Origin: Pseudosulfitobacter pseudonitzschiae
GTDB lineage: Bacteria > Pseudomonadota > Alphaproteobacteria > Rhodobacterales > Rhodobacteraceae
Reading direction: 5' to 3'
Length of the DNA: 64,000 nucleotides
Assembly (NCBI RefSeq): GCF_900129395.1
Contig: NZ_FQVP01000005.1
Location: forward strand, 372,001-436,000
Positions within the stretch are counted from its first letter, which is position 1, and each line of letters begins with the position of its first letter. The position numbers and the translations under genes are program-made. Under the pieces are notes generated by a model. The model worked only from the letters and a program-made list of their open reading frames with translations, was not told the DNA's origin and searched no databases. This document shows, one piece after another, positions 21,400-55,708 of this stretch.

Positions 21400-21483
21400 G
21401 CCCAAGTGGCGGAATGGTAGACGCAGGGGATTCAAAATCCCCCGCCGCGAGGCGTGCCGGTTCGAGTCCGGCCTTGGGTACCA
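21400..21483 (+). tRNA. tRNA-Leu (CAA)
   Basis: An 84-base cloverleaf. The acceptor stem GCCCAAG pairs with CTTGGGT (one G-U), the anticodon loop TTCAAAA gives CAA at 21433-21435, the long variable arm is typical of leucine, the T-loop is TTCGAGT, and CCA is encoded (21481-21483). Its 3' end is the integration target of the 34-kb element that follows. Confidence 0.96.
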
Positions 21484-21485
21484 CC
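21465..21485 (+). other. attL core
   Basis: The T-arm and acceptor 3' half of tRNA-Leu plus the CCA and two more bases. Identical to 55688-55708; the flanking bases differ on both sides, which fixes the core at 21 bp. The tRNA remains intact on this side. Confidence 0.92.
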
Positions 21486-21527
21486 TCATCAACGTGCTGC
21501 TGATATTGTTCAGTTTTTTTCGTTTTC

Positions 21528-21555
21528 TGTCCCACGGGATAATATCGTGGGACAC
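21528..21555. promoter_or_regulatory. candidate integrase arm-type sites, left
   Basis: TGTCCCACG (21528-21536) and its inverse CGTGGGACA (21546-21554) lie between attL and int. The core word TGGGACA recurs three times just inside attR (55543-55648) and the element ends are where arm sites of a lambda-type integrase are expected. There is no T-run, so it is not a good terminator for int. Confidence 0.5.
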
Positions 21556-21571
21556 TTTGATCTCGAACAGA

Positions 21572-22669
21572 TCAGAAAACGACGTGTCGAATACCGTCCA
21601 TTGCGAGTGCCGCCATTCGGCGACGATCTGCATTTTCAGTGTAGATCGCGCTCGTCGCGGGCTTGGTGTGTGCCATCACAGACATGATCTGATGCTGTGT
21701 GCATCCAGCTTCTGCCAGCAGTTCGCCCATTGCCTTTCTGACACCGTGTTGTGAACGGCCGGTTAGTCCCGCCTGTGCTGTCCATGCCTGGATCATTCGA
21801 CGTAACGATTCCGGCGTTCGGTATGGGCGCCCATGCTGGCTGAGCAGGTAGGTTGCGCCTTCGACGGTTGGCGCCCGCAATTCTTCCAGCAGCTGCGGTG
21901 CGATCGGGATAGACACGAACGCAGATCCGCGTTTCTGCGGTTGCCAGTCCAGCCAAAGACGGCCGTCGCGCGTGACTTCATGCTTCCTGCCGTGCTTCAC
22001 GGTGTCGCTGATGCGTCCGGCTGTGAACATCGCCAGAAACAGCCAGCGGCGTGCTGTCGTGCCCTTTCCGTGTGTTTTCAGGAAGGCTTTCAGATCCTCA
22101 GCTGACCAAGGCGTTGCGCCACCTTTGGAAACGTGCACCTTGCGCACACCTGCGACTGGATTAACCGACACCCTCCGACGCTCGATCCCCCATTTGTAGG
22201 CGGCGCTGAGGCCCTTCAGCGTGTTGTCTGCCTGCGCCGTGCGTCCGCCCCAGCTGTCGCGTATCAGCACGAAAGCTTCTGGTGGCAGATCGACGTGCAG
22301 GGATCCTATGCGATCGCCCTGATCGTCAGTCACATCCATGGCCCGGGTCAGCAGCGACTTGCGCTGTTTCAACGTGAGGGGCGACATTAGCTTCGCCAAC
22401 ACCTGACCCTCGATCCATGTCAGATAGCCCTGGATCAGCTCGTCTGCAGAGTAGCGCGCAACTGGCGGCAGGGCAGTCGGTGCATCGACGGTACTGCCTG
22501 CACGGGCTGCGTAATAGTGTTCGGAGAATGTGGGATGCTCAGGCCCCACGGGTATCCGGATGCGGCGCTTTGGATTGCCCTCGACCCGCACCCTGTGGCG
22601 CACTTCGCCCGAGGGGAGCTTTTCGGGTACGTAACCCTTAAATCTGACCTTCACATCGATGTCCGTCAT
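21572..22669 (-). CDS. int: tyrosine-type site-specific integrase
   Basis: A 365-residue phage-type integrase. An N-terminal arm-binding-like part (residues ~1-60), a SAM-like core-binding domain (~70-175), and the catalytic domain with Arg219 (TAGRISD), His308-x2-Arg311 (HGVR), His334 and the nucleophile Tyr343 (SAIYTEN). It would catalyse recombination between tRNA-Leu and the element. The start ATG 22669 overlaps the preceding small gene by ATGA; upstream codons in the same frame show no integrase similarity. Last gene of the leftward operon, reading toward attL. Confidence 0.93.
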   Translation of the reverse strand: MTDIDVKVRFKGYVPEKLPSGEVRHRVRVEGNPKRRIRIPVGPEHPTFSEHYYAARAGSTVDAPTALPPVARYSADELIQGYLTWIEGQVLAKLMSPLTLKQRKSLLTRAMDVTDDQGDRIGSLHVDLPPEAFVLIRDSWGGRTAQADNTLKGLSAAYKWGIERRRVSVNPVAGVRKVHVSKGGATPWSAEDLKAFLKTHGKGTTARRWLFLAMFTAGRISDTVKHGRKHEVTRDGRLWLDWQPQKRGSAFVSIPIAPQLLEELRAPTVEGATYLLSQHGRPYRTPESLRRMIQAWTAQAGLTGRSQHGVRKAMGELLAEAGCTQHQIMSVMAHTKPATSAIYTENADRRRMAALAMDGIRHVVF

Positions 22670-22851
22670 TGTCCAAACCTGCGCGGTTCGGCGCGGTTCT
22701 GATGTAAGGGTATGACCTTCTGTCCGCTGTCGGCAATGATTCTGACCGATCCGTCCTTGTCGACAATGACCTCGGCTATGAGCATGCCGCATGCTTTCGC
22801 TGCCTCGATGGCATTGGTGATTACTGCTTTGGTCGCTCTCGGGGCTGGCAT
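22666..22851 (-). CDS. small phage-type protein next to int
   Basis: A 61-residue protein (starts MPAPRATKAVI, contains AEVIVDKDGSVRIIADSG). Similar short proteins sit beside integrases in Rhodobacteraceae prophages as far as I recall, with unknown function; an excisionase-like role is possible by position only. Overlaps int by 4 bp and is separated by 3 bp from the upstream gene. Confidence 0.6.
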   Translation of the reverse strand: MPAPRATKAVITNAIEAAKACGMLIAEVIVDKDGSVRIIADSGQKVIPLHQNRAEPRRFGQ

Positions 22852-22854
22852 AAG

Positions 22855-23097
22855 TCAGTTGCCTTCTTTGGTTACGCGCAGAGCCTTGCGCAGGTCATAG
22901 TCCCGTGTCGCGTCGTCCCATGCATCGCTCGGGCAATCCCGCCAACCGGCATTCATAACGGGGATCCAGATCGGGATCAGCCAAAGCAGCTTGATGCGCC
23001 GCTCGGCGCGCCAAGAAATGCCTTCATGTCCTTGGCTTGTGACCATGACGATCGCGGGCCGGACCCGGTAATCCTCAAGCTCTCTTGCGTTGCTCAT
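22855..23097 (-). CDS. hypothetical protein
   Basis: An 80-residue protein starting MSNARELEDYRV and carrying a hydrophobic patch LLWLIPIWIPVMN. No recognised domain. Start is fixed by a 4-bp ATGA overlap with the upstream Cys-rich gene. Confidence 0.55.
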   Translation of the reverse strand: MSNARELEDYRVRPAIVMVTSQGHEGISWRAERRIKLLWLIPIWIPVMNAGWRDCPSDAWDDATRDYDLRKALRVTKEGN

Positions 23098-23654
23098 TCT
23101 TCCACCTCGATCCGCTTGACGGCCTTGAACGGCCAGTCCCGACCTTCCATCGCAGCCCGATCGCGCAGGGCGCGCGCCTGGGCCTTCGTCCCGCTCCAGG
23201 CGTACCGCGTGCCATGGGTCACACCCGCGCCGGAGAGGTGCAGGTATTGCTTGGTGCCCGTGATCCTGAACCGCACCTTGGGCGTCTCTGTGCGGTACTC
23301 GGTTTTGATCCGGGGCAGCCCGCTGGTGAGCATGGTCATGTCTCGACCTCCGAAGAATAGTTGATGAAGCGCCGACCCCGCACCGGCGCCGGACAAAAAC
23401 ACGGCCCCCAGTGACCACCAGTCGATGCGTTTGTGGCTTGGCCTGTCTGCGACGATCCACCAAGGCACAGTGCGGGCACGGCACAGATCGCAGTCGCTGG
23501 CGCCGCAGCGGCACGCCAGCTCAGACATCGCGCCGCAGCCAAAGCAGTCGGGGCGCCCGCAGGGGCACTTGGGTATGTGGCGGCGGGCAGGGCAGTCGCG
23601 GCCCTGATTGCAGCGGCCGTTGCATGGGGGGCAACTCAAGGTACAACAGCTCAT
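23094..23654 (-). CDS. Cys-rich phage-type hypothetical protein
   Basis: A 186-residue frame in two parts. Residues 1-60 contain about thirteen cysteines in CxxC-like pairs (CNQGRDC, CPCGRPDCFGC), suggesting zinc binding, then a hydrophobic stretch near residues 80-100. The rest, from an internal MTMLTSGLP, is basic and could be a separately started protein. Start ATG 23654 overlaps the HNH gene by ATGA. Function unknown. Confidence 0.55.
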   Translation of the reverse strand: MSCCTLSCPPCNGRCNQGRDCPARRHIPKCPCGRPDCFGCGAMSELACRCGASDCDLCRARTVPWWIVADRPSHKRIDWWSLGAVFLSGAGAGSALHQLFFGGRDMTMLTSGLPRIKTEYRTETPKVRFRITGTKQYLHLSGAGVTHGTRYAWSGTKAQARALRDRAAMEGRDWPFKAVKRIEVEE

Positions 23655-24265
23655 AGGGACCGGCCCTTCCTTGCTTCCCGTGCGCTGTGCTCGAGCCGCG
23701 CAATGGCCAGAAGGGTGGGACGCACCTCCGGCTCGAAGCGGTCATAGCTTTTGCCATGGGGGCCACCGGACAGGCGGGGCATGCAGGCCTTGGGGACCAG
23801 GGCCCAGTTCGCGGGATCACAGTTAGTCTTGTCGCCATCCAGGCACTTCAGAACGTGACCTTCGGGGATCGGGCCGTTGGCCTGTTCCCAAAGCCAGCAG
23901 TGCTTGAGAACCGGACGCGTGGGCGCGCCCGTTCGCGGGTTCGGCGCATCGATGACCAGGATCACGTAGCCCTTCCTGTTCACGCGCTCATAGCCGACGG
24001 GGCGACAGTTCCGGGGGCGTTGGCCTTTCTTGAAGTAGTTCTTGACCCTGTTCTCGTTGAAGGGCGGTGTCTGCCCCTCAAAGAGACCGGTGTTTCCGTT
24101 GCGCCACCCCTTGCGGGCGCAGAGCCGCTTGATGTGTTCGACGGACACATCCGTCCGCCGCGACCAGGCGGCGAACCTTGCATGCAGGTCGCGGCGGGCC
24201 ATCTTGTGGTGGGCCTTGATGAAGGCCAGCTCGGCCTCTGTGTACCGGATCCTGACGCCCTTCAT
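23651..24265 (-). CDS. phage-type HNH nuclease
   Basis: A 204-residue protein. An N-terminal helical DNA-binding-like part (YTEAELAFIKAHH ... DVSVEHIKRLCARKGW) precedes an HNH core: KHCWLWEQANGPIPEGHVLKC and DKTNCDPANWALV, as in phage homing-type HNH endonucleases. It could nick or cut DNA; target unknown. Start overlaps the upstream gene by ATGA. Confidence 0.8.
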   Translation of the reverse strand: MKGVRIRYTEAELAFIKAHHKMARRDLHARFAAWSRRTDVSVEHIKRLCARKGWRNGNTGLFEGQTPPFNENRVKNYFKKGQRPRNCRPVGYERVNRKGYVILVIDAPNPRTGAPTRPVLKHCWLWEQANGPIPEGHVLKCLDGDKTNCDPANWALVPKACMPRLSGGPHGKSYDRFEPEVRPTLLAIARLEHSAREARKGRSL

Positions 24266-24519
24266 GACCCGCCCCGCGCTTTGTCCTGGTTGCCGATCTT
24301 GGGCAGGTGGGGCAGGATTGTGGGCCCGTGCTCCGCAAAGAGCTTTGCGGCTTTGAGGCTCAAATCGGCATTGGTGCTGATCCGGTCGGCAAGGCCGACC
24401 ATGGCGGCCGCTTTCCGGATCTCGGTATCGGTCTGTTCGGGGGAAAGGCTCTGATCCGCGAGGCGGTCAAGCTGGTCGAACAGGTGATCGTTCAGGTCGG
24501 CAAGGCTGACTTTGGACAT
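24262..24519 (-). CDS. hypothetical phage-type protein
   Basis: An 85-residue helical protein (MSKVSLADLNDHLF ...) with no recognised domain. Preceded by AGGAGA six bases upstream of the ATG. The gene downstream overlaps it by ATGA; the ParB-like gene ends 14 bp upstream. Confidence 0.6.
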   Translation of the reverse strand: MSKVSLADLNDHLFDQLDRLADQSLSPEQTDTEIRKAAAMVGLADRISTNADLSLKAAKLFAEHGPTILPHLPKIGNQDKARGGS

Positions 24520-24533
24520 GGTGGTTCTCCTGG

Positions 24534-26378
24534 TTAAGCTCTGTTGCCGGGGGCGATCTCCGGCGGCAGCCAGCTGTCGATCCGCGCGGTGTCGGCGCGG
24601 CCGAGGCCCATGGCCTCGCGCACGGAGAGGTCATGCAGCAGGCCGTGCAGGTCCTTGACCTTGTGGCCCTTGCCCTGCGCCGCGAAAGCCTGCACCCGCT
24701 CGTCGTCGCGGGTGAGGCCAGTCAGCGCGACAAAGTGGTCGACCAGGTGCGTCTGGCTGCAGCGGCTGAAGTAGATCGGCGCATCGGGCGTCCACGTCTT
24801 GCGGATGTCGATCGACAGATCCGCGGCCAGCATGGCCCCCAGCAGGGCGGTGCTGTGCTGCGGGCGCTGGACGGTGCGGGCCAGGTGCTGTGCCAGCACC
24901 GTGTTGCGGTGCTTCTTGCCCTTGGCCCGGAAGGCCGCGAAGTCGGCGGCCATGTCGGCGGGCGCGGGCTTGCCGCTGGCGTTGCTGGTCTCGGTCAGCC
25001 GCTTGTCGAGGATCAGCGCGCTGTCGGCCGCGTCATGTTTTTCCGGGATGATGGATTGGTCGCTCAGGGTCACGGCCAGCAAGGCGGCGTAGGTCGGCAG
25101 CTGCGCCTCGACCTGGTAGGCCAGCAGGTCCAGCAGCAACTCGGGCTTGTCCACCAGGGCGGTTTGCAGGGCCAGCGTCTGGATGCGGTGCAGGTCCTCG
25201 ATCGCGGCCTGTGCGACGGGCGGCTGGCGGGTCGTGGTCTTGTCGATGCCGTTGCCATCTGCGCCGGTGGGGGACTTGCCTGGCTTGGGGCGAAAGGCGT
25301 CGCTGACCTTCAGCTCGCCCTTGTCGTTGACGTAGAGCCAGACGCCCGCGGTCTCGATGTCCTCCGGCTCATAGTCACCCTTGGCGCGGGCGCGCAGGCT
25401 CTGCAGCGTGGAATAGCCCTCTTCGTCCAGAGATCCGTCTTCTTCCAGCTCTTCCAGCCGGTCCCGTTCGTCCTGGTCTGCCTCGGGCAGCTCGACGGGC
25501 ACGCGGTAGATGCGCTCAAAGCCATCGGTCTGCCTGTAGCCCAGGTAGGCGTCCTCATAGACAGGCAGAACAAAGGCCCAGCCGCTGTGCGCCGCTTCGG
25601 CCTCGACGGCCAGGTCCAGCTTGTGGCGGAACAGCCTGTCCAGCAGATCGCCGTCGTGCAGCAGGGTCTCGTCGTCGAAGAGGTTCTCGGTCAGCGCCCC
25701 GCCCTCGCCACGGTAGGTGTCGAGACCGACGAACACGGCGCGTCGGTCGGTCGCCTCGATCCGGCCATCGCGCAGGGCGTGGATGATCTGGTGCCCACGA
25801 AGTTCGCCCGCAAGAACAGCCTTCAGCACGCGCTCCAGCCGTGCCGTGTCGTCGAGCGACTGGGTCAGCGCCTTGGCCATGTCGAGACTGATCCTGTTCT
25901 CGCGCAGGGCCATCAGGGCCGGGGCGGGCAGGGCGGCCAGTGCCAGCCGCCCACGCACATGGCGTACGGGCTTGGCGAAAGCGCGGGCAATGTCCTCGGG
26001 GGTGCGGCCGAGCTTGGCCATGGCGGCGTAGGCGCGGATCTCGTCGGCCGGGTGATGATCAACACGGGCGTGGGTCTCGGCACCGGCCCAGGCTTGGGCG
26101 GTGGCGGGATCGTCGGTGACCAGGACAGGGATCGGGTCGATCACATCATCGCCGGTCAGCTTGTTCAGCCCGCGCAGGCGGCGGCCCCCCGCGACGATCT
26201 CGACGCCGGTGTCGGTCTGCAAGCCGATCAGGTTGGTGAGCAAGCCGCTGACGCGCAGGCTGTCGGTCAGCTGGTCGATCTCGGCCTCGGGTGGTGCTGC
26301 GCGGGTGTTCAAGGCGCTGATCTTCAGCTCCGCCAGCGGGATCCACCGCACGGCATCAATGGGGGCTTGGATGTTCAT
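24534..26378 (-). CDS. ParB-N domain protein
   Basis: A 614-residue protein whose first ~100 residues are a ParB/Sulfiredoxin-fold N-terminal domain (IPLAELKISALNTRA, then EIVAGGRRLRGL, the ParB box II), followed by a ParB-like HTH region (ADEIRAYAAMAKLGRTPEDIARAF). The long C-terminal part is acidic in the middle and unrecognised. No parA is present, so partition is uncertain; such orphan ParB-like proteins occur in phages and mobile elements as regulators or CTP-dependent clamps. Start ATG 26378 overlaps the upstream gene (ATGA). Confidence 0.8.
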   Translation of the reverse strand: MNIQAPIDAVRWIPLAELKISALNTRAAPPEAEIDQLTDSLRVSGLLTNLIGLQTDTGVEIVAGGRRLRGLNKLTGDDVIDPIPVLVTDDPATAQAWAGAETHARVDHHPADEIRAYAAMAKLGRTPEDIARAFAKPVRHVRGRLALAALPAPALMALRENRISLDMAKALTQSLDDTARLERVLKAVLAGELRGHQIIHALRDGRIEATDRRAVFVGLDTYRGEGGALTENLFDDETLLHDGDLLDRLFRHKLDLAVEAEAAHSGWAFVLPVYEDAYLGYRQTDGFERIYRVPVELPEADQDERDRLEELEEDGSLDEEGYSTLQSLRARAKGDYEPEDIETAGVWLYVNDKGELKVSDAFRPKPGKSPTGADGNGIDKTTTRQPPVAQAAIEDLHRIQTLALQTALVDKPELLLDLLAYQVEAQLPTYAALLAVTLSDQSIIPEKHDAADSALILDKRLTETSNASGKPAPADMAADFAAFRAKGKKHRNTVLAQHLARTVQRPQHSTALLGAMLAADLSIDIRKTWTPDAPIYFSRCSQTHLVDHFVALTGLTRDDERVQAFAAQGKGHKVKDLHGLLHDLSVREAMGLGRADTARIDSWLPPEIAPGNRA

Positions 26379-26656
26379 TGGAGGATGTCCTTCTGTGTGC
26401 GGGTGATCCGGCGTGCGAAGTGTTCGGCGAGGCCCATGACCTCCTTGAGGTCCGGCTTTGCGCAGACGTAGCGGGCGGGCTGACCGTCGAACCAAGGGGC
26501 CACGCGCAGCTCGAACAGCGCGTCACCGGTGCCCATGGCCTTGATCTTGTGGATGGATGCTGTGACGGCACCGTGGGTCAGGGTGGCCGAGGTTGGCCCG
26601 GTGCGCTTCCACCCCGTGTCGGCCCTGCCGGGCGCGTGAGTGGTGGCAGTGGTCAT
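26375..26656 (-). CDS. hypothetical protein
   Basis: A 93-residue protein (MTTATTHAPGRAD ... ARRITRTQKDILQ). The C-terminal part FELRVAPWFDGQPARYVCAK looks like a small beta-rich domain; no family recognised. Both ends overlap neighbours by ATGA. Confidence 0.55.
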   Translation of the reverse strand: MTTATTHAPGRADTGWKRTGPTSATLTHGAVTASIHKIKAMGTGDALFELRVAPWFDGQPARYVCAKPDLKEVMGLAEHFARRITRTQKDILQ

Positions 26657-27503: not shown

Positions 27504-28133
27504 TCACAGTCGGCGGGCCAGATCCGCGGGCAAATGTAACCGAACCCGTGATGCCCATTTGAGCTTCACGTCGTGCTGATTGTGGGCGCCGGGATTCAAA
27601 GAGATCAGGTTGAAGAGCCCAGGTTCTGATCCCGCGCGCACCTGTTTGACCCATCCCATGCCATCGATGTCTTCACAGACGCAGCGGTGGCCAACAGCGT
27701 CGGACGGCACCCCGTCTGCTGTGTCGCGGGTGTAGAATAGCAGATCACCCGATGAAAATACCGGCTCCATGCTGTCGCCGATAACTTCAACCGCGACGAT
27801 GCCGCTGGGTGAGAGCTGGGGAGGGCACTCAACCTGTGGCCCGTCGCCTTTTTCATAGGCATCAAAGACGGGAACTTTTGCTCCTGCGCCGACTTGCCCT
27901 GCTATGCTTACCGTGTTCGTTTGTGAAAAGTCAGCGTTCAAAAACTGGTCTAGCGTCAAGCCAATTGCTGACGCGACTTTCTGCGCATCATCCACGTTTG
28001 TGGATTGAGTTTTGCCCTGCTTAACCTTTTTCAATTGTTCATAAGAAACGCCCGCGCTCTCGGCGATGTGCCGAAGCGATTTTCCTGAATAGATCAGGGC
28101 CTTAGCGAGTGCGTCTGAAAAGGTCGTCGGCAT
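27504..28133 (-). CDS. S24-type phage repressor (XRE HTH + LexA-like peptidase)
   Basis: A 209-residue CI-like repressor. Residues ~5-60 are a helix-turn-helix (KSLRHIAESAGVSYEQLKKVKQG). After a linker with a possible Ala-Gly cleavage site (QVGAGAKV, ~81-87) comes the S24 peptidase: nucleophile Ser121 in GDSMEP and general base Lys163 in WVKQV. This predicts RecA-dependent self-cleavage and induction after DNA damage. The start MPTTFSDAL is chosen because upstream codons run through operator DNA. There is no ribosome site; the transcript may be leaderless. Between this gene and the leftward operon (27236-27503) only the O-L region is seen. Confidence 0.88.
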   Translation of the reverse strand: MPTTFSDALAKALIYSGKSLRHIAESAGVSYEQLKKVKQGKTQSTNVDDAQKVASAIGLTLDQFLNADFSQTNTVSIAGQVGAGAKVPVFDAYEKGDGPQVECPPQLSPSGIVAVEVIGDSMEPVFSSGDLLFYTRDTADGVPSDAVGHRCVCEDIDGMGWVKQVRAGSEPGLFNLISLNPGAHNQHDVKLKWASRVRLHLPADLARRL

Positions 28134-28135
28134 AA

Positions 28136-28213
28136 GGGGACAATAGTCCACCTCGGGCGTTGTCACTAGGCGATGATTGTCCCTTGCATGGAGGGGACTT
28201 TTATCCCTATAAC
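28136..28213 (+). promoter_or_regulatory. divergent switch region with three repressor operators
   Basis: Three 16-bp sites of form GGGGAY-N4-RTCCCY: 28136-28151, 28169-28184 (one half-site mismatch) and 28193-28208. Rightward promoter: TTGCAT (28184-28189) and TATAAC (28208-28213) with the third operator in the spacer. The first operator overlaps the likely -10 (TATTGT) of the leftward repressor promoter. Centres are 33 and 24 bp apart. The layout parallels lambda O-R with P-RM and P-R. Confidence 0.7.
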
Positions 28214-28218
28214 CGGGT

Positions 28219-28416
28219 ATGACCAGAGAGCAGCTTGTATCAGACATTGAAGAATTTGCCGCGATTAACAAGATCGCGCCAGCGACGGTCACTAGCCGGG
28301 CGGTCGGCAATAGTCGCCTGTACCGACGGCTGAAAACTGGGAAAAGCTGCACTCTTGAAGTGGCGGCAAGACTGAAGAAGTTCATGGAAATTCCCCCGTC
28401 GGAGGACGCAGCATGA
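28219..28416 (+). CDS. Cro-position small DNA-binding protein
   Basis: A 65-residue protein starting MTREQLVSDIEEF with NKIAPATVTSRAVGNSRLYRR, a compact helix-turn-helix-like pattern. It is divergent from the S24 repressor, first in the rightward operon, and of Cro size, so an early repressor role is inferred from position. The ATG lies ~6 bases after the -10 box, so the mRNA is predicted leaderless. Overlaps the next gene by ATGA. Confidence 0.65.
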   Translation: MTREQLVSDIEEFAAINKIAPATVTSRAVGNSRLYRRLKTGKSCTLEVAARLKKFMEIPPSEDAA

Positions 28417-29438: not shown

Positions 29439-29632
29439 ATCTGCGCAACCAGGTGCACGCGATACTGTCTGCCAGGTGGGAGAACAGCGGCAATCATGAT
29501 TTTGACCTGGGCCCGCTCGGCGTGGCCGAGCAGCTTGTGGCTTCCGGTGACATCGATGCAGGCGGGCGCGGCGCAGAGGCCTTCTTGATCTTTGCCGCGA
29601 TGGCCGTGGCTGAATGGCGGTCAGAGCGATGA
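29435..29632 (+). CDS. hypothetical phage-type protein
   Basis: A 65-residue protein starting MNLRNQVHAILSARW, helical, acidic in the middle (DFDLGPLGVAEQL). No recognised domain. ATGA overlaps with both neighbours. Confidence 0.5.
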   Translation: MNLRNQVHAILSARWENSGNHDFDLGPLGVAEQLVASGDIDAGGRGAEAFLIFAAMAVAEWRSER

Positions 29633-30405
29633 GCCAGAACAGATCCTCTGCCGTCATGCAGCAACGGGCCGAGCCGACCGACAGCCTGGACGACTTCCCG
29701 ACGCCGCCGTGGGCCACGCGGGCGCTGCTGGCGTTCCTGAAGCAGATGAACCAGCCGCTGGATGTGCAGCACGCCTGGGAGCCTGCCTGCAACCGTGGCC
29801 AGATGGCCCGTGTGCTGGGTGAGGAATTTGCCGAGGTCTGGGCCACGGATGTGCACGACTATGGCTATGAGGGCATGGCGGGCCGCGTCGATTTCCTGAT
29901 GCCGGACCTCGAGCCGCCGGTCGGCATCGATTGGATCATCACCAACCCGCCGTTCCGTCTGGGCCCGCAGTTCATCCTGCGGGCGCTGGAGCTGGCCGAG
30001 GTCGGCGTGGCGGTCCTTGTGCGCACGTCCTTCGACGAGGGCACCGCGCGCTACCAAGCCCTCTTCCGCGACAGGCCGGAGACCTGGGCGCTGCCCTTCG
30101 TCGAGCGCGTGGTGATGTGGCAGGGGGTTCTGCTGGATCCGGACGTGCCGGTCTGGCGCCCCTCGAAGGACGATCCCGACGATTTGACCAAGGGCAAGAT
30201 GGAAAAGCCCAGCAGTGCCACGTCGTATCAGTGGCTGATCTGGTTGAAGCCAGCCGTTGCCGTCGATGAGATCGCCGCCTCGTTCAAGCGGCGCATTCCC
30301 CCGTGCCGCAAGGCTCTGACCCGTCCCGGGGATTACCCGCCCGTGCCTGCGCATCTGCGCGCGCCTGCCGGTCTGTCACCGGCGCCCTTGCTGAAGGAGC
30401 TTTGA
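29629..30405 (+). CDS. phage-type SAM-dependent DNA methyltransferase
   Basis: A 258-residue class I methyltransferase. FPTPPWATRALL (23-34) is a typical start of phage N6-adenine methylases; EPACNRGQMA (51-60) is a variant of the AdoMet motif, with Asn-Arg in place of the usual Gly; TNPPF (105-109) is the catalytic DPPY-type motif for N6-adenine. No cognate restriction gene adjoins, so protection of element DNA or regulation is likely. Ends in TGATG shared with the next start. Confidence 0.8.
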   Translation: MSQNRSSAVMQQRAEPTDSLDDFPTPPWATRALLAFLKQMNQPLDVQHAWEPACNRGQMARVLGEEFAEVWATDVHDYGYEGMAGRVDFLMPDLEPPVGIDWIITNPPFRLGPQFILRALELAEVGVAVLVRTSFDEGTARYQALFRDRPETWALPFVERVVMWQGVLLDPDVPVWRPSKDDPDDLTKGKMEKPSSATSYQWLIWLKPAVAVDEIAASFKRRIPPCRKALTRPGDYPPVPAHLRAPAGLSPAPLLKEL

Positions 30406-30896
30406 TGTCTGTCGCCGACTTTAACGCCACCGATCTGAGCGATGATGTGGATCTGCTGAGCCTGTCGATGGCGCAGTTCTACGCGGCACACGACCGTGTC
30501 GTGGCCCGTCATGAAGCGGAACGCAGCAATCCCAAACATGGCCGCAAGGACACAGAGGTGCGCCCGGTCTGGCCACAGGAGTGGCGCAGGACGCAAGCGG
30601 ATCACGGTGTGGGCCGCCAGCTCAGCCGGTTCTGGTGCGCGGTGCTGCAGCAAGCCATCCTCGAGGCCTGCGAGGAGTACGCCAAGCGGGGACAGGTCCC
30701 GGCTTGGGTCGGGTCACGGGGCCCGCGCGAGGTTGGCAACCTGGCCGGTTTGAACGGCGAGGCCGTGGCCGAAGTCCTGCAGGGCCATTTTGCATCGCAG
30801 GCCGGGGTCATGGACCTGCACGCCGCCATCCGCGCCGGTGCCTCCCACGAGCCCCGCAAGGCGGCGCGCGAGAAGCAAAAGGTGGACCAGCTGTGA
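30405..30896 (+). CDS. hypothetical phage-type protein
   Basis: A 163-residue protein starting MSVADFNATDLSDD. The central RPVWPQEWRRTQADHGVGRQLSRFW and later EEYAKRGQVPAWVGSRG are distinctive but not a family I can name. The ATG follows AAGGAG and shares one base with the methyltransferase stop. Confidence 0.6.
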   Translation: MSVADFNATDLSDDVDLLSLSMAQFYAAHDRVVARHEAERSNPKHGRKDTEVRPVWPQEWRRTQADHGVGRQLSRFWCAVLQQAILEACEEYAKRGQVPAWVGSRGPREVGNLAGLNGEAVAEVLQGHFASQAGVMDLHAAIRAGASHEPRKAAREKQKVDQL

Positions 30897-31568: not shown

Positions 31569-31672
31569 TGTCTCTATGTGTCCACGGACACATAGAGACA
31601 GTCCCGGGACACATAAGGACAGTCGCGGACACATAGACGGACATAACGGCGACTTAAGGGGTCTATGTGTCC
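31569..31672. repeat. iteron-like array, candidate replication origin
   Basis: The 9-mer GGACACATA occurs three times in direct orientation (31586, 31607, 31627; spacing 21 and 20 bp) and twice inverted (TATGTGTCC at 31575-31583 and 31664-31672). The first direct and inverted copies form a perfect 15-bp inverted repeat with a 2-bp centre (31569-31583 / 31586-31600). Two direct copies are followed by GACAGTC. The array lies between the DUF1376-like gene and the next gene and is followed by AT-richer DNA (31681-31705). Confidence 0.7.
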
Positions 31673-46772: not shown

Positions 46773-46885
46773 TCGCCATTTTCTGATTGTACGATGCTGT
46801 TCACTGCTGGTTTGCCTAGGGTCGCCATGCGGTCCATACAAGGGTACAACCTTTCGTAGATTAAATCTGAAGCTGGAGAGACCGC

Positions 46886-48058
46886 ATGAAGCTGCTACGC
46901 CTGATCATTAGTATCTTTCTTATCGCGGTGGCGCTATGGGTCATCATCGCCGAGCAAATGGCCGGAGCGAGTGCCAACGCCTTTGTAAATGCGCCGGTGG
47001 TGACAGTTCGCGCCGATACAGCCGGTGACCTTACGCTACCCAACCTCCCGTTTGGCGCACGCGTACAAAAGGGTGAGACGCTTGCCTCTATAGACGATCC
47101 GCTGGTCGACAACATTCGATTGAACGATTTGCGAATGGAACAGAGCTTCATTGAGGCAGAGATCGCCCGCCTTGAAGCGGATCTGAAAAGCACTGAGGCG
47201 CTACGGACTAGCCTGCTGGACCGTGTCGAAACTTTCCGCGTGGCGCGGCTGAAAGAGCTGAGCACCCGTCTCGAACACGCCCGTATCCGGCTTGCCATTT
47301 TGGAGGGAGGCGAACTGCCAGAGAACACAGATCAAGAGATTCTCTCGCTTGTGGGAGAGCTGCCAGGCCGCATTCCTATGGAGCCGGGGCTGGTGCCGCT
47401 GATCCTCGATCACGCTCGTGAACGGGTCGAAGTGTTGCAGATTGCCCTTGATACTGCGCGCGCTGGAGTTTTCCTCGGCGACGGATACAACGATTCTCCC
47501 AATGCCCAGCAGCGCGCAACAGAATTGAAAACCGTTATTTCGCAGCTCCAGAATGGGCTTGCGGAAGCGCAAAGGAGGCTTAGGGCAATCACCACGCGCA
47601 GTCAGCGCGAAAATCTGCTTGTGAACGCGGCAGGCGGTAGAGAAATAACCTCTCCAGTCAACGGACTTTACTGGGAGGTGCTTCAATCCGATGGCATCAA
47701 CGTGCAGCGAGGCGATCCGATCCTCAGACTGGTGAACTGTGATGCGACCTTTGTCTCGCTTTCTGTCACCGAGCGTGTATTCAATTCGCTACAAATTGGC
47801 GAAGCCGCTTCATTTCGCCTGACTGGAAGAGAAGAAGTCTTTGAGGGCACCGTCGCCCGTCTGGCGGGGGCCGGTGCGGCGTCTATCTACCAGAGCCTCG
47901 CAGTTGCACCTTCCCAAAAGCACCTTGAACGTTATGACGTCGCTTTGTTGGTGCCGGAACTGACTGCGGATAGCGAGCGCGGTTGCGCCATCGGGCGCAC
48001 CGGACGCGCATTTTTTGATGAGCGCCCCCTCAATTGGTTCCGGGCTATGCTGGATTGA
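46886..48058 (+). CDS. HlyD-like membrane-fusion protein, BgsB-like
   Basis: A 390-residue protein: one N-terminal membrane helix (residues ~4-25), a biotinyl-lipoyl hybrid motif (VTVRADTAGDLTLPNLPFGARVQKGETLASIDD), a long helical hairpin (~80-250), then the second lipoyl half (EITSPVNGLYWEVLQSDGINVQRGDPILRLV) and a beta-barrel end. Adaptors of this kind pair with GT2 synthases in alginate (Alg44) and mixed-linkage beta-glucan (BgsB) systems and replace BcsB. Ends in TGATG with the synthase. Confidence 0.82.
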   Translation: MKLLRLIISIFLIAVALWVIIAEQMAGASANAFVNAPVVTVRADTAGDLTLPNLPFGARVQKGETLASIDDPLVDNIRLNDLRMEQSFIEAEIARLEADLKSTEALRTSLLDRVETFRVARLKELSTRLEHARIRLAILEGGELPENTDQEILSLVGELPGRIPMEPGLVPLILDHARERVEVLQIALDTARAGVFLGDGYNDSPNAQQRATELKTVISQLQNGLAEAQRRLRAITTRSQRENLLVNAAGGREITSPVNGLYWEVLQSDGINVQRGDPILRLVNCDATFVSLSVTERVFNSLQIGEAASFRLTGREEVFEGTVARLAGAGAASIYQSLAVAPSQKHLERYDVALLVPELTADSERGCAIGRTGRAFFDERPLNWFRAMLD

Positions 48059-50037
48059 TGCTGCCCTTTCCGCATCTTGGTGAATTGGGCTCGGCCGCCA
48101 TGCACCTTCTTTTGGTGGTCGGTGTCGGGACACTGATACCGCTCTTTGTCGACCCTCTGAAACACTGGCATCGTGCGCTATTGCTTGGCGTCGCTGGTAT
48201 TCTTGCCCTGCGCTATATGTGGTGGCGGGCCACACAGACGCTAGCGCCCCCCGAACTCAGTCTCGACATGGTCGGAAGCTGGCTTCTCTTCGGGCTTGAA
48301 GCCTTTTCAATCGTCGGGTCACTCAGCGCCTTTCTGATCCTGTCGCGCTACAAATTGCGCAGCAAGGAGGCCGACGCCCATGCAGGCTGGTGGGGTCGGC
48401 AAGAACCGCGGGTGGCGATCCTGATCGCCACCTATAACGAAGATAAGGAAATCCTCGAACGGACCATCGTCGGTGCAAAGTTCCTGCGGCATCAGAACAA
48501 GGAAATTATCGTTTGCGACGACAACCGGCGGGATTGGCTGCGTCATTTCTGCGAAGAGCTGGAGGTGCGCTACATGCGCCGCCCGACCAATGAAGGGCAG
48601 AAAGCCGGTAATATCAACCACGCGCTGGACCGTCTGGCCGAGGATGTAATCCCTCCTGACTTCGTGGCCGTGCTCGACGCCGATTTTGTGCCACATCGGG
48701 GCTTTTTATCCCGGACGCTGGCGCTGTTTCATGACCCCGAAGTTGGTCTGGTCCAGACTCCACAGCACTTTTTCAACCAAGACCCGATCCAGCATAACTT
48801 CAATGTCGGGCGGTCCTATCCCGATGAACAACGTTTCTTCTTTGACCACATGCAGCCCTCTCGGGATGGCTGGGGCATTGCCTTTTGCTGCGGCACATCC
48901 TCGGTCTGCCGCTGGCGTGCCCTCCGCGAGATCGGCGGGTTCAACACCGAATCCGTAACTGAAGATTTTATGCTGACACTCGCGCTTCAAAACGATGGCT
49001 GGCGATCTGTTTACCTCTCAGAGCCACTCTCCGAAGGTCTCGCACCGGAAGGGCTGAAGGAGTATGTGACCCAACGCGCGCGCTGGTGCCTTGGCCTGAT
49101 GCAGATTGCGCGATCTTCCCTCGGACCGCTGTCGGCAAACAACCTGCGGCTGCGTGACCGATGGAGCGTTCTGGATTCGATCCTGTTTTGGACAACCACC
49201 TATCCGTTCCGCATCGCGGCCATCATCTTTCCACTCCTTTACTGGTTTTTCGACATCATCGTCGTCAATGCACGGTTGCCTGATGTGATCAGCTATTTCG
49301 GATCCTATTATTTCTGGATCCTCATCACACTGAACTTTCTGACCCGTGGTATGGTTGTGCCAATCCTGAACGATGTCAGTCAGCTTCTGGGTGCGATCCC
49401 GATCAGCCGTGCTGCCTTTACAGGATTGTTCAAGCCGCATGGGCACCCATTTTCGGTGACTGCCAAAGGCGGAGACCGCTCGAAAGTGGTGGTGCAGTGG
49501 CGCCTGATGATGCCGTTTCTAATTGGCTTTTTGCTAACGCTTATCGGCTTGCTTCTTGGGATCATCTTCGACCAATACGCCACCTTTTCTTCCGGTGACG
49601 GGAAATGGGTCATCCTTTTTTGGAGCCTGTACAATCTAGCGGTATTGGCCGTGACATGTCTTGCCTGTGTGGAGCGCCCGCGCAAAGAGCTGCACGTCAG
49701 CGACAAGCCGGAACGCGCGGTCTTTTCGACCGATGGGCGTCATCACGAGCTTTGGATTACGTCTCTGACTATGGACACGGTGCGTATTCGCGGCCTCTCG
49801 ATCCCCATTCAGTCCCGTGGACATTTGGTGATCGAGAGCATCCCGGGGCGCATTGAAACCTACGCCATATCAGAAGTTGCAGACGGGGCGCGTCTCCAAT
49901 TGTTGCCAACGGAAGCGCAGCGCGAAGCATTCTTCGTTAAATTCTACGCCGATGGCCATGAGCCGGGGGTCAACGAAGTCAAAATGAGGAACCTGGTCCG
50001 TGACATCTTTCGTGGCTTTGGGATCAGGCGACACTGA
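48058..50037 (+). CDS. GT2 beta-glucan synthase, BgsA-like
   Basis: A 659-residue processive family 2 glycosyltransferase. N-terminal helices (~15-100), then the catalytic domain: CDDN (153-156), DADF (207-210), TED (301-303) and QRARW (339-343), the D, DxD, TED and Q(R/Q)xRW motifs of cellulose-type synthases; further helices to ~570. The C-terminal ~90 residues sit where BcsA has PilZ, but only a weak trace remains (ERPRKEL ... SLTMDTVRIRG), as in Sinorhizobium BgsA, which responds to c-di-GMP without a PilZ. Product therefore more likely mixed-linkage glucan than cellulose; inferred. Start ATG shares a base with the bgsB-like stop. Confidence 0.85.
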   Translation: MLPFPHLGELGSAAMHLLLVVGVGTLIPLFVDPLKHWHRALLLGVAGILALRYMWWRATQTLAPPELSLDMVGSWLLFGLEAFSIVGSLSAFLILSRYKLRSKEADAHAGWWGRQEPRVAILIATYNEDKEILERTIVGAKFLRHQNKEIIVCDDNRRDWLRHFCEELEVRYMRRPTNEGQKAGNINHALDRLAEDVIPPDFVAVLDADFVPHRGFLSRTLALFHDPEVGLVQTPQHFFNQDPIQHNFNVGRSYPDEQRFFFDHMQPSRDGWGIAFCCGTSSVCRWRALREIGGFNTESVTEDFMLTLALQNDGWRSVYLSEPLSEGLAPEGLKEYVTQRARWCLGLMQIARSSLGPLSANNLRLRDRWSVLDSILFWTTTYPFRIAAIIFPLLYWFFDIIVVNARLPDVISYFGSYYFWILITLNFLTRGMVVPILNDVSQLLGAIPISRAAFTGLFKPHGHPFSVTAKGGDRSKVVVQWRLMMPFLIGFLLTLIGLLLGIIFDQYATFSSGDGKWVILFWSLYNLAVLAVTCLACVERPRKELHVSDKPERAVFSTDGRHHELWITSLTMDTVRIRGLSIPIQSRGHLVIESIPGRIETYAISEVADGARLQLLPTEAQREAFFVKFYADGHEPGVNEVKMRNLVRDIFRGFGIRRH

Positions 50038-52324: not shown

Positions 52325-53035
52325 TCAGATAGCTTTCTGATTTACGCGTACTGACAACTCCTCGGCGCTTTCTTTTCGCTCGCTGTAGCGATCCAACAGG
52401 TAATCCTTGCTGTCTCTGGCCAGAATCGTAAATTTCATGAGTTCTTCCATGACATCAACCACCCGGTCATAGAATGGCGACGGCTTCATACGGCCAGCCC
52501 CGTCAAACTCCAGAAATGCTTTCGGAGTGGAGGACTGGTTCGGGATCGTCAAGAGGCGCATCCAGCGCCCGAGGATGCGGAGCTGGTTCACGGCATTGAA
52601 GCTTTGTGAGCCACCGCTGACCTGCATGACGGCCAGCGTCTTGCCCTGCGTCGGCCGCACACCACCAAGAGAGAGTGGAATCCAGTCGATCTGCGTTTTC
52701 ATGATGCCAGTCATGGCACCGTGCCGTTCTGGTGAACACCAGACCATTCCTTCGGACCAGGTGACGAGATCACGCAGCTCCTTCACCTTTGGATGAAGGT
52801 CCTCTGCATCATCCGGCAGCGGCAGGCCAGATGGGCAATAGGTACGCGTTTCGGCTCCCAATCGCCTAAGTATGCGAGCCGCTTCCTCGGTCATCAACCG
52901 ACTGAATGACCGGCCCCGGAGCGAACCGTAAAGCAGCAGAATCCGTGGGGCGTGCTCAGCCCGTGCAGAACTCAGCAAGCGATCCCTGTCAGGGGCTTGG
53001 ATGTGCTCTTCGTCAAGGTTTGGGGTATCAGCCAA
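52325..53035 (-). CDS. arsH: ArsH NADPH-dependent FMN reductase
   Basis: A 236-residue flavodoxin-fold oxidoreductase: [16 protein letters not shown] (FMN phosphate site), [22 protein letters not shown] and [18 protein letters not shown] are ArsH signatures. Known to oxidise trivalent methyl/organoarsenicals. Start: a TTG at 53035 has GGAGG 8 bp upstream and overlaps arsC by 8 bp; an earlier TTG at 53056 lacks one. Last gene of the arsenic operon. Confidence 0.9.
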
Positions 53036-53450
53036 CTCGGTTTCCCTCCGCGTCAATTAACGGCGTACCATCCTCTTTCGTCATTGGGCCAGGTGGCAGG
53101 TGGTCGAGAAGATCCAGTACCGCTTCGCTTGGTCGGCAAAGCCGGGTGCCTTTGGGGGAGCAAACGATAGGACGGTTCACCAAAACGGGATGCTCCAGCA
53201 TCGCTGCCAACAACGCGTCGTCGTCTACTGACGGATCGAGCAGCCCCATTTCCTTGGCTGGAGATTTTGTTGTCCGTAGTCCTGTACGCGGTGTCAAATC
53301 CGCAGCGGCAAACAGTGCCAACAGCTGCGGACGGGTCCAGCCCGTGTCGAGATAGGAGATGACCACGGGCGTCTCGCCCGAAGCTTCGATGATGGCCAGG
53401 ACGTTGCGGGACGTGCCGCAATCAGGATTGTGATGAATAACGACGGTCAT
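53028..53450 (-). CDS. arsC: glutaredoxin-coupled arsenate reductase
   Basis: A 140-residue ArsC of the plasmid R773 type. The catalytic cysteine is Cys11 in [10 protein letters not shown], and [16 protein letters not shown] carries the conserved arginines. Reduces arsenate to arsenite with glutathione/glutaredoxin. It overlaps acr3 by ATGA and arsH by 8 bp. The operon also encodes a second, unrelated arsenate reductase at 54540. Confidence 0.92.
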
Positions 53451-54514
53451 GCTGAATCCTTTCCGGAGGAAAACCAGTGCTGAGTTCTGTTTGCGAATGC
53501 GACGAGCGACAGCATCACCGGCACTTCGACCAACACACCGACGACTGTTGCCAGCGCAGCCCCAGACCCCAGGCCGAACAGGCTGATCGCGACGGCAACG
53601 GCCAGTTCGAAGAAGTTGGAGGTGCCGATGAGGGCACAGGGTGCCGCGACGTTGAAGGGAATGCCCCAAGCTCGCGCAGCACCGTAGGCCAAAAAGAAGA
53701 TGCCATAGGACTGGATTAAGAGCGGCACGGCAATCAGGGCGATCACGAGTGGGCGCTCAAGGATCACTTCCCCCTGAAAAGCAAAGAGTAGCACGACAGT
53801 AACCAGCAAGCCGATGATCGAGAACGGTTGAACGCGCGATTTGAAGGTATCGACAGCCGCTTCGCCGCCCTTGGCGATCAGACGCTTTCGCGTCATGTAT
53901 CCGACCAACAGCGGCAACATGACATAGAGGCCAACCGACAACAGCAGGGTGTCCCAAGGCACGACAATGTTCGTCGCCCCAAGCAGGAAGGCCACGATGG
54001 GCGCAAAGGCAAAGACCATGACGACATCGTTCACACTGACTTGCACCAGCGTATAGGTGGCGTCGCCGCGCGTCAGGTTCGACCAGACAAACACCATCGC
54101 GGTGCAGGGCGCAGCACCCAACAAGATCACGCCCGCGAGATAGGCTTGGGCGTCATCTGGCGGGATCAGGCCTGCAAAGACGTAGCTGAAAAACAGCACA
54201 CCGAGTGCTGCCATCGTGAACGGCTTGATCAACCAGTTCACCACCAGTGTAACAACCAGTCCTTTCGGCTTATCGCCCACTTGACGCAGCGCACCAAAGT
54301 CCACACCGACCATCATAGGATAGACCATGGCCCAGATCAGCACCGCCACGGGTAGGTTGACTGAAGCGATCTCCAGCGCAGCGAGTGCAGCAAACACACC
54401 CGGAAACAAGTTTCCAAGCAATAGCCCTGCGCCAATTGCCAATGTTACCCAGATGGAGAGCCAACGTTCAAAAGGTCCCAAGCCCGCCGCAGCGGGAAGC
54501 GATGTATCAGTCAT
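53447..54514 (-). CDS. acr3: ACR3 family arsenite efflux permease
   Basis: A 355-residue, ten-helix inner-membrane carrier that exports arsenite. The essential cysteine is Cys137 in [27 protein letters not shown] and [18 protein letters not shown] are the paired discontinuous-helix motifs of the family. Complete. Placed between the two arsenate reductases, so arsenite from either is exported. Confidence 0.95.
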
Positions 54515-54539
54515 GTCAGGCTTTCAGAAAAGTGGGGGG

Positions 54540-55049
54540 TTAATTGGCGTGGGCGGCAGAACGGCCAATCTCGTCGAGGTTGCGCTGGAGAGCCATCCGA
54601 TCAAGCGCGCCAAGCGGCAGGCTGACGAAGATGGAAATCCGGCTGCGGAGCATCCGATAGGTTTCCGAAAAGGCCAGCCGTTTGACGGCTTCCGGACCTT
54701 CAACGCCTGCGGGGTCAGGCATTCCCCAATGTGCGGTCATCGGCTGGCCGGGCCAAAAGGGACACTCCTCAGCCGCAGCATTATCGCAAACCGTAAACAC
54801 AAAATCCATTTGCGGCGCATCGGGGCCTGCAAATTCATCCCAGCTTTTTGATCGCGCGATGCTTGTGTCATGGTTAAGGCCATGCAGGAGATCAATCGTG
54901 TAGGGATGCGGTGTCGGACCTGGCCGTGATCCAGCGGAAAATGCTCTGAATTTTCCCATCCCTTCCCGATTCATGATGGCTTCCGCCATAATCGAACGGG
55001 CAGAATTTCCAGTGCAAAGGAACAAAACGTTGAAGATGTCCTTGTTCAT
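54540..55049 (-). CDS. arsC2: LMW phosphatase-type arsenate reductase
   Basis: A 169-residue low-molecular-weight tyrosine-phosphatase fold: the P-loop FLCTGNSARS with nucleophile Cys12 and general acid Asp in MPDPAGV. VFTVCDNAAAEECPFWPG carries two more cysteines that could relay the disulfide to thioredoxin or mycothiol-like partners. An AGGAGA sequence precedes the ATG. It follows arsR by 9 bp. Confidence 0.88.
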   Translation of the reverse strand: MNKDIFNVLFLCTGNSARSIMAEAIMNREGMGKFRAFSAGSRPGPTPHPYTIDLLHGLNHDTSIARSKSWDEFAGPDAPQMDFVFTVCDNAAAEECPFWPGQPMTAHWGMPDPAGVEGPEAVKRLAFSETYRMLRSRISIFVSLPLGALDRMALQRNLDEIGRSAAHAN

Positions 55050-55058
55050 GTCTGTCTC

Positions 55059-55391
55059 CTAACAGGCGCAAGCGAGTTCGTTGATAACGGGTTGGCACAT
55101 TTCCGGGCGGCCTCCGCAGCAGTCCTCCATCAGGAACGCAAGCAAGCCGCGCATTCCCTCCATGTCGGCAAAATAGCGAATACTGCGTCCCTCGCGCTCG
55201 CTTCGGATCAGACCCGCCCGCGCCAGTATCGCGAGGTTGTTCGACATCGTGTTTTGAAGGACATTGAGGGTCTGGCCGATGTCGCCAGCGGACATGCCAG
55301 TCTCGCCAGCCTTGATGAGGAGACGGAATACATCGAGGCGAATGGCCTGACTGAGTGCAGCGAAAGCGTCGAGAGCGTGATTCTTATCCAT
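55059..55391 (-). CDS. arsR: ArsR family arsenite-responsive repressor
   Basis: A 110-residue winged-HTH repressor: DAFAALSQAIRLDVFRLL, SAGDIGQTLNVLQNTMSNNLAIL as recognition helices. The C-terminal tail has cysteines in EDCCGG, MCQP and ACAC, candidates for As(III) binding of the C-terminal type. Start ATG 55391 (MDKNHALDAF) has no ribosome site; the transcript probably begins just ahead of it. First gene of the ars operon, reading away from attR. Confidence 0.9.
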   Translation of the reverse strand: MDKNHALDAFAALSQAIRLDVFRLLIKAGETGMSAGDIGQTLNVLQNTMSNNLAILARAGLIRSEREGRSIRYFADMEGMRGLLAFLMEDCCGGRPEMCQPVINELACAC

Positions 55392-55393
55392 AA

Positions 55394-55427
55394 ATCTAGA
55401 ATTGTAGATATGTATAGCTTGAGTCAA
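55394..55427 (-). promoter_or_regulatory. arsR promoter/operator
   Basis: On the minus strand TTGACT (55427-55422) and TACAAT (55406-55401), spaced 15 bp. An inverted repeat ATCTA-N6-TAGAT (55394-55409) covers the -10 and start site. The leader is only a few bases. Confidence 0.55.
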
Positions 55428-55542
55428 GATTGCTTTTTGTCACCTGAGCGTTTGCCAATTTTCCTGCTTAGCTGACGTTCACCTAAACGCAGCAAAGGTC
55501 TGCTCTCCGCCCTTGAAGGCCGAGTATGAGACAAGTTGACTA

Positions 55543-55648
55543 TGTCCCAAAGCAAGATTTTTGAACCACGTTCAGCAAAAGATCGTGGGACACGTCGGTC
55601 ATAAGTTGTTGATATTTATGAAGTCTAATGACGGTTGCTTTGGGACAC
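55543..55648. promoter_or_regulatory. candidate integrase arm-type sites, right
   Basis: TGTCCCA (55543-55549), CGTGGGACAC (55584-55593) and TTTGGGACAC (55639-55648) in the gene-free DNA (55428-55687) just inside attR. The same word occurs as an inverted pair next to attL. Confidence 0.5.
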
Positions 55649-55687
55649 CCCTAGGTTGAAAACAAAGCAATTTTCCCAACTAAGGTC

Positions 55688-55708
55688 AGTCCGGCCTTGG
55701 GTACCACC
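55688..55708 (+). other. attR core
   Basis: Exact copy of 21465-21485 (3' end of tRNA-Leu plus flank), without the rest of the tRNA. Right boundary of the element. Confidence 0.92.

Follow-up and report, generated by a model that had tools for sequence, protein, structure and literature searches.

We analysed a 64,000-nucleotide stretch of the Pseudosulfitobacter pseudonitzschiae genome (NCBI RefSeq assembly GCF_900129395.1, contig NZ_FQVP01000005.1, positions 372,001 to 436,000; hereafter the window), in which an island of about 34 kb occupies a tRNA-Leu gene. The island joins an early block of phage genes to cargo of host type and retains, between two parts of that cargo, a short noncoding cassette that it shares with phages and that had been overlooked in an earlier note on this DNA. 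Two relatives recur in the comparisons: a prophage on another contig of the same genome (C23) and a sister element in Sulfitobacter sp. 20_GPM-1509m (genome G004). The island probably travels inside particles of C23-type phages. Its attachment (att) sites, early block and cassette were located as follows, with identities in amino acids (aa) and nonsynonymous and synonymous divergences (dN and dS) where given.

21400–21483 (+): tRNA-Leu(CAA), the insertion site, by ARAGORN (Rfam 21400–21480)
21465–21485 (+): exact att repeat of the tRNA side, overlapping the tRNA-Leu 3′ end
21572–22792 (−): tyrosine integrase, 406 aa, adjoining the tRNA; the G004 copy is 97% identical in aa (dN 0.014, dS 0.350)
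23651–24265 (−): phage HNH endonuclease (phrog_1891)
24262–24519 (−): small phage protein by PHROG match (phrog_2044)
24534–26495 (−): ParB-like protein, 87% aa identity to the co-resident prophage
27504–28385 (−): S24-peptidase (LexA/CI-type) repressor, reading frame as called, with a true start possibly further in; 99% aa identity in G004
29614–30405 (+): N6-methyltransferase (MTase)-like phage protein, 94–97% aa identity across three block copies
30893–31564 (+): putative replication protein; residues 105–223 of 223 are identical in G004; weak PHROG match (E 0.0095)
31575–31672 (both strands): iterons, five copies of GGACACATA, three on + and two on −; candidate origin
32375–33040 (+): p32375 (phrog_9306), final gene of the early block, which in phages sits upstream of HNH and TerS
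38693–38793 (+): packaging-site (cos-like) cassette, about 101 bp, noncoding; model match 38703–38784
55573–55708 (+): conserved right end including the second att repeat (55688–55708); 81% identical to G004 over 55573–55723

The left-hand features had in part been described in the earlier note and were confirmed here. The att sites are exact 21-bp direct repeats and form the sole pair in the window at up to three mismatches (0 expected from 100 shuffles), the integrase lies on the tRNA side, and what had been called a full early-phage control region does contain HNH, ParB-like, S24 repressor, N6-MTase-like and replication-type genes together with iterons. The protein encoded at 29614–30405 has an NPPF motif, which we take to be a mark of N6-MTases. 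No internal stop was found in the window copies of the integrase, HNH, ParB, repressor, MTase, p31776 and p32375 genes. An open reading frame (ORF) at 22855–23514 was dropped as a gene; it is open in the window and has stops in G004 and in G003, another genome of the genus.

On contig C23, a second copy of the early block is followed by genes for HNH, the small terminase TerS, TerL, portal, S49 protease, HK97-type capsid and tape measure, in what is apparently a complete prophage, whose MTase is 94% identical in aa to that of the island. The 18 proteins of the C23 late stretch (16 kb) gave no tblastn match in the window at E 1e-3 and 19 on their own stretch as a control, which upholds the statement of the earlier note that no terminase, portal, capsid or tail gene is recognisable; likewise no conjugation gene was named, as checked solely by Pfam on 40 ORFs. 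Because the block recurs in C23 with late genes whose proteins find no match in the window, the island is phage-derived and lacks its late half. No P4-type primase/helicase or capsid-size gene was named by Pfam (40 ORFs) or PHROGs (10 ORFs), among which unnamed proteins remain. In the early region of C23 (stretch L031), tblastn found no match for either the island repressor or the island integrase, and beyond the 97% copy in G004 the relatives of this integrase were at most 51% identical in 198 family genomes drawn.

The cassette lies between a defence module on its left and host-type cargo on its right, with no phage gene on either side. It is 95% identical to G004 over 38693–38793, 92% identical to C23 over 38694–38791 and 85% identical to an element in G003 over 38684–38806, and the C23 cassette ends just before the TerS gene. 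The homology of the window stops at about 38806, before TerS, with no late-gene relic beside the cassette; in the G004 and G003 sisters, the alignment shows what appear to be the first few TerS codons after it (codons read by eye). We built a sequence-only model from 11 sites and searched 394 family genomes, 6 genus genomes, Pseudooceanicola marinus LMG 23705 (G423), 20 genomes of the genus of G117 and 390 order genomes that overlap the earlier draws. This gave 73 distinct cassette places (39 + 10 + 6 + 18), including 8 of the 11 model sites. Three virus records with one TerS-bearing site each were also searched and used in model building but were left out of the count. The end of contig C20 and the start of contig C4 in G004 have the same core and probably represent a single locus broken across two contigs; they entered the count as two places.

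TerS was found downstream of the cassette at 31 of the 73 places (11, 1, 5 and 14 by draw), and none was seen at the other 42. Among 12 TerS-bearing stretches, HNH was within 0.6 kb upstream of the cassette in 10, and TerS opened from −0.23 to +0.17 kb relative to the cassette start. Phages with the order HNH–TerS–TerL carry their cohesive-end site (cos) at this position, and the cassette is called cos here because of its place between HNH and TerS in terminase-bearing phages, on that ground only. At least 11 of the 42 TerS-less sites have ParB, MTase or p32375 upstream (the window, G004 C8, C20 and C11, G003, G080 C5 and five of G423); the p32375 profile also matched what looked by eye like a TctA-like permease in G004 C11, and this match was ignored. 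The remaining TerS-less sites include fragments and more distant elements. In IMG/VR, a 32,025-bp virus record shares an exact match of 13,766 bases with the C23 prophage stretch. Of two contigs returned by a first exact-pattern scan of this database for the cassette, one agrees with that record in name and length; a second scan returned none, and these scans say little because IMG/VR selects for virion genes.

We then compared the tRNA-Leu site among the 6 genus genomes. It is occupied in the window genome and in G004, and it is empty in G001 and G003, where the fetched stretch holds the tRNA-Leu with a single att copy and no island, and sequence matching the window's right flank begins again after no more than about 0.4 kb. 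In G002 about 3 kb lies between the two, and G005 gave no right-flank match. The earlier note had suggested looking for an empty site and for the same block at tRNA-Leu with other cargo, and both exist: in G004 the same integrase, block, cassette and right end are found at the same tRNA-Leu, in pieces spread over contigs C11, C18 and C8, with DNA identities of 92.9% over window positions 17724–23573 and 93–97% over pieces of the block. G004 carries type I restriction genes in place of the McrBC genes of the window, and its cargo after cos comprises a CDP-alcohol transferase, ABC transporter parts, a GMC oxidoreductase and a CoA-transferase; no C23-type late gene was found in the pieces searched. 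Late genes were also not recognisable in the G003 copy at tRNA-Val and in a more distant cassette-bearing island of G115 at tRNA-Arg. The earlier note had reasoned that if close homologues of the block always continued into terminase, capsid and tail genes, this copy would be just one decayed prophage. The block does continue in this way in C23, so it is phage-derived, but not in G004, G003 or G115. A single-copy decayed prophage had been our first expectation after C23 was found and lost ground once G004 showed the same element without late genes; with G003 and G115 also lacking recognisable late genes, the window copy is not a lone decayed prophage.

The site could also be read as two neighbouring elements, a small phage-derived one and an unrelated island with a common end. 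Base composition shifts at about 33 kb in the window. Just right of attR, a frame at 55788–55946 (−; SLRHAAQHTQRSTTDIYARGRSEAANKV...) resembles by eye the C terminus of a further tyrosine integrase, and more than one element has therefore probably occupied this site; the DNA at 55709–57132 is without counterpart in the empty sites and was probably left by an earlier element at this tRNA. However, no third att copy is present at up to three mismatches, and both the cassette and the right end are common to G004, and we regard a pair of elements as very improbable.

The cassette of the window differs from that of C23 at 7 of 84 positions, and 58 of 60 core bases are identical; this divergence is lower than the dS between window and C23, which is 0.40 for ParB, 0.20 for MTase and 2.1 for p32375. 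As phage DNA amid non-phage DNA, with neighbours that are unlike between the window and G004, the cassette looks selected. Among 16 TerS-less sites that share a genome with one of 11 compared TerS-bearing sites, 14 match their own phage best, the exceptions being the window and G167, for which the phage of another genome is ahead by 0.01–0.02. G423 is outside this 16-site count; there, the 22-base core of the phage, CTCCTGACCGGTGAGGGGACCG, is exact in 6 of the 9 TerS-less sites and occurs also in G117. On G423 contig C28 (stretches L360 and L361), two different cassettes are separated by 29.5 kb that include an integrase, an arrangement resembling two such islands in tandem. G340 and G065 each have several TerS-less sites with a clearly different core (GACCGCGC... 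and ACCGGCGCGGG...), possibly separate satellite lineages.

One terminase-bearing phage accompanies several cassettes in some genomes. G004 has one PF03354 terminase genome-wide, which stands beside one of its 7 cassette places (or 6 loci, should C20 and C4 be the same). Of the 10 cassette places in G423, 1 has a terminase, and a second PF03354 terminase lies elsewhere; the window genome combines two such places with a single PF03354 terminase, that of C23. We infer that contigs C17 and C5 of G004 are two halves of its complete prophage, because the C17 integrase starts with the same residues as that of C23. C17 (15.6 kb) had been considered as a circular element, and this was rejected, as the 203-bp match between its ends is 97.5% and not exact.

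We compared sequence divergence between window and G004 (dN/dS as omega). The host dS is 0.226–0.437 with a mean of 0.337 for 10 genes around the site, and the integrase has a dS of 0.350, a dN of 0.014 and an omega of 0.04. As integrase dS equals host dS, the integrase has either been at this site since the two species parted or came from an equally diverged pool, and it has stayed intact. Over comparable parts of the block, dS is 0.16 for HNH, 0.13 for ParB, 0.034 for the repressor, 0.207 for MTase, 0.082 for the replication protein and 0.147 for p32375, and among small ORFs of the block it is 0.15–0.17 for two and 0.40 for the ORF at 26653; much of the block was exchanged later. Omega is 0.04–0.14 for the integrase, HNH (101 of 204 aa), ParB (180 aa), repressor, MTase and p32375, and 0.18–0.31 for three small ORFs; p31776 was not comparable. 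Neither relaxed selection nor disruption of mobility and control genes, as in a decayed prophage, was observed, and a dead prophage is not expected to keep its integrase under such purifying selection.

The higher dS of the integrase (0.35, against 0.03–0.21 for the main block genes) means that block and integrase have different histories, which fits a de novo origin in which a genomic island with its own tRNA-Leu integrase gained the early block and cos from a resident prophage, and might still be packaged. That the integrase has no tblastn match in the C23 early region and only distant relatives apart from G004 points the same way. In contrast, the order from integrase through p32375 to cassette follows the phage map, and two sisters keep the apparent first TerS codons, read by eye, after the cassette. 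We consider such an origin improbable.

The size of the elements was evaluated where both ends could be placed. The att-to-att distance is 34,223 bp in the window (32,536 bp by subtraction of an ISL3-type insertion sequence of 1,687 bp), 31,041 bp in G003 at tRNA-Val (48-bp perfect repeat), 33,265 bp in G115 at tRNA-Arg (55-bp repeat with 2 mismatches) and about 32,181 bp in G004, pieced from contigs with gaps assumed colinear. The arm from integrase to cos measures 17.2 kb in the window, 12.2 kb in G003, 7.9 kb in G115 and about 17.1 kb in G004, and the arm from cos to att measures 17.0, 18.8, 25.4 and 15.0 kb, respectively, so that the arms vary while their sum stays near 33 kb (31.0–34.2 kb). 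Two prophages with cassette, terminase, portal, capsid and an att pair are 32,507 bp (G590) and 33,728 bp (G533) long; for G533, a 17-bp pair ending at tRNA-Glu was chosen over two pairs of score 15–16. Counted from its integrase, close to the end of the contig, up to a presumed end at tRNA-Gly, C23 is about 32.4 kb or longer, and a search for its att repeat found none. No convincing att pair was found for the TerS-less sites Pm_C29, G340_C7, G338 and G582 or for the prophages Pm_C10a, G491, G594, G643, G575_C7 and G556, which were left out of the size comparison.

The island has the general marks of a phage satellite, namely att sites with an integrase, no virion genes of its own and a cassette, putatively cos, common to C23. 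The earlier note had proposed a satellite-like or phage-derived island family, and the G004 comparison, the retained cassette and the phage-length size support that proposal. We think it fairly likely that the island is a phage-length cos satellite, reduced from an HK97-type siphophage and packaged by a helper. Such a satellite would retain the left half of the phage (integrase, repressor and replication-type genes) and a cos of about 101 bp, and exchangeable cargo would take the place of HNH left of cos and of the entire late half, from terminase to tail, right of cos. DNA damage would inactivate the S24 repressor, the integrase would excise a 34-kb circle at att, and the replication genes and iterons of the island would amplify it. 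A co-induced C23-type helper would provide terminase, head and tail; its terminase would cleave the satellite cos and pack one unit length, and in the recipient cell the satellite would integrate at tRNA-Leu. A wider proposal, on which our confidence is evenly balanced, is that Rhodobacteraceae harbour a recurrent natural family of cosmid-like satellites that traded the late half of a siphophage for interchangeable host cargo, in which the cos of about 100 bp and the phage length would be under selection, one helper would serve several satellites per genome, and a defence slot would lie left and a metabolic slot right of cos.

The main competitor of the satellite reading is a defective prophage whose late half was deleted, which gathered host-type genes before attR and is now immobile with the cassette as a relic. 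As such a history predicts, the early block is phage, early genes are present and late genes are missing. The cassette also survives in plainly decayed-looking copies. In G005 (contig C1, about 58734; L334 and L335), cassette and HNH remnant lie at the tRNA-Gly site where the C23-type prophage sits in the window genome, with the host genes from the right-hand side of C23 adjoining, which looks like an ordinary decayed prophage with the packaging site spared; G239, G250, G582 and G525 keep HNH and have no TerS, and in all, 5 of the 42 TerS-less sites keep HNH, as simple decay would leave it (a marginal HNH match in G115, E 1e-3, appeared in one search and was not repeated in another). These five genomes mean that a cassette without a terminase is by itself no proof of a satellite. 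The early block of G003 is badly deleted and its element holds transposase-like genes (recognised by eye), and the window cargo includes ISL3. The best match of a cassette to the resident phage is expected of that phage's remains as well, so the match alone does not decide. Weak matches or positions at contig ends account for several of the 42 TerS-less sites, with less than 0.7 kb visible downstream of the cassette in G004 C20 and G423 C21; the size sample comprises four elements, one of them pieced; the sole PF03354 terminase of G003 is a distant one and G115 has none, so that no close helper is now seen in these two hosts; and the cassette is putatively cos by position, while excision, replication, packaging and transfer are steps that we infer. 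All of these points weigh against a satellite.

The window type is set apart from such remnants by its intact integrase and repressor, by the replacement of both sides of the cassette, and by its phage length. Unlike in a dead element, its integrase is intact at host-level dS, and the repressor, ParB and MTase are open with an omega of 0.04–0.13 over the parts compared with G004. The cassette was kept while both its sides were replaced, differently in two species and without a late-gene relic in the window, and the lengths remain at 31.0–34.2 kb despite varying arms. We therefore judge a defective prophage rather unlikely.

Several known systems resemble the proposed satellite in part. Transducing phages of the lambda dgal type keep int, early genes, cos and att, have bacterial DNA in place of late genes and need a helper. 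The island likewise keeps integrase, early genes, the cos-like cassette and att with the late genes replaced, but it is no laboratory product, its integrase and cassette are conserved between species, and its cargo is unlike the DNA beside att (an impression from gene names). P4-like satellites carry a cos site. They also have hotspots of defence genes (PMC9122126), and the island resembles them as a satellite with defence cargo; on the island ORFs scanned, however, Pfam and PHROGs named no P4-type gene, and its 34,223 bp compare with a usual satellite size of 6–18 kb, much smaller than helpers (PMC11389934). Phage-inducible chromosomal islands (PICIs) that carry cos are packaged by helper cos phages (PMC6092414). 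Among them, EcCICFT073 and SaPIbov5 similarly carry the cos of the helper, and EcCICFT073, without a TerS of its own, is packaged in full-size heads (PMC6092414). Our island is no PICI by its early genes, which are those of the phage itself (ParB 87% and MTase 94% to C23), nor by its phage length, of which about 22 kb is cargo. Defective prophages of Escherichia coli O157 Sakai without head or packaging genes have their DNA in particles, complemented by other prophages (PMC2669165), whereas in the island exchangeable cargo has taken the place of the late half and only the cos-like cassette is left, and the pattern recurs in several genera.

A reductive origin of satellites is a model with open questions, and a 2024 review asks how often helpers mobilise defective prophages and whether such prophages last to become efficient satellites (PMC11389934). 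It bears on this question that the integrase, as diverged between two species as the host genes are, has been kept by purifying selection, that the islands measured are of helper length, and that the co-resident prophage has a near-identical cassette yet, in its early region, no copy of the island repressor. The question can thereby be tested directly in an environmental genus that is not known to be pathogenic. If the satellite reading is true, ordinary-looking phage particles could carry about 20 kb of genes for metal resistance, polysaccharides, transport and defence from one marine bacterium to another, and such islands could escape viral surveys that demand virion genes. By a term search, the word "satellite" is absent from the main text of a Rhodobacteraceae prophage survey (PMC8224337), and among the titles and abstract openings listed from the open literature on roseobacter, alphaproteobacterial or Sulfitobacter satellites and on phage-length, cos-type or cargo-bearing satellites, we recognised no description of this family.

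The cargo itself had been described as one run of 22 kb. It is present, but in two blocks, loci A and B, parted by the phage-derived cassette at 38.7 kb.

33268–34551 (−): McrC-like protein, locus A (Pfam)
34551–37355 (−): McrB-like AAA protein, locus A (Pfam); of this pair, PADLOC matches the AAA protein only
37697–38611 (−): NAD-dependent epimerase, locus A (Pfam)
39076–39552 (+): PRC-barrel protein, locus B
40844–42530 (−): ISL3-type insertion sequence, including terminal inverted repeats (36 nt, 81% complementary)
45789–50037 (+): GH8, HlyD-like and GT2/cellulose-synthase-like genes, locus B
52325–55427 (−): arsenic-type group of FMN reductase, ArsC, SBF/ACR3-type, LMWP and ArsR-type helix-turn-helix proteins

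For the slot from p32375 to cos, we ran PADLOC on 10 proteins from 6 elements. Defence-type matches were the McrB-like protein in the window and a type I restriction–modification system in G004 C8; an Aga_REase-type protein and a dGTPase were matched in G004 C20, and G423 C17 gave a weak NERD-type match. PADLOC gave no match for the McrC-like protein and epimerase of the window or for single proteins from G423 C28 and G003. The slot from cos to attR held host-type genes in all four elements examined. When 65 of 68 listed cargo proteins of four elements were compared with PHROGs (three overlapping ORFs were omitted, and three genes at stretch borders were not in the list), no head, tail or packaging family was named among the 25 of 44 matched families listed, many of which are unnamed; as a positive control, 15 C23 late proteins matched terminase, portal, head and tail families.

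A related element on G080 contig C5 (694000–733999; L318 and L319) has ParB and the cassette followed by a 2769-aa frame in place of terminase; it gave no tyrosine-integrase profile match and has an apparent serine recombinase (by eye). A Hint-domain protein is encoded right of attR in G004 (L265, 1391–2272), and another between HNH and cassette in C23 (L031, 243–1148). Finally, the epimerases at G004 C5 10655–11569 (L340) and at window 37697–38611 have the same first 55 residues and each lie directly left of a cassette; with like epimerases at two loci in two species, cassette and neighbour may have moved together.

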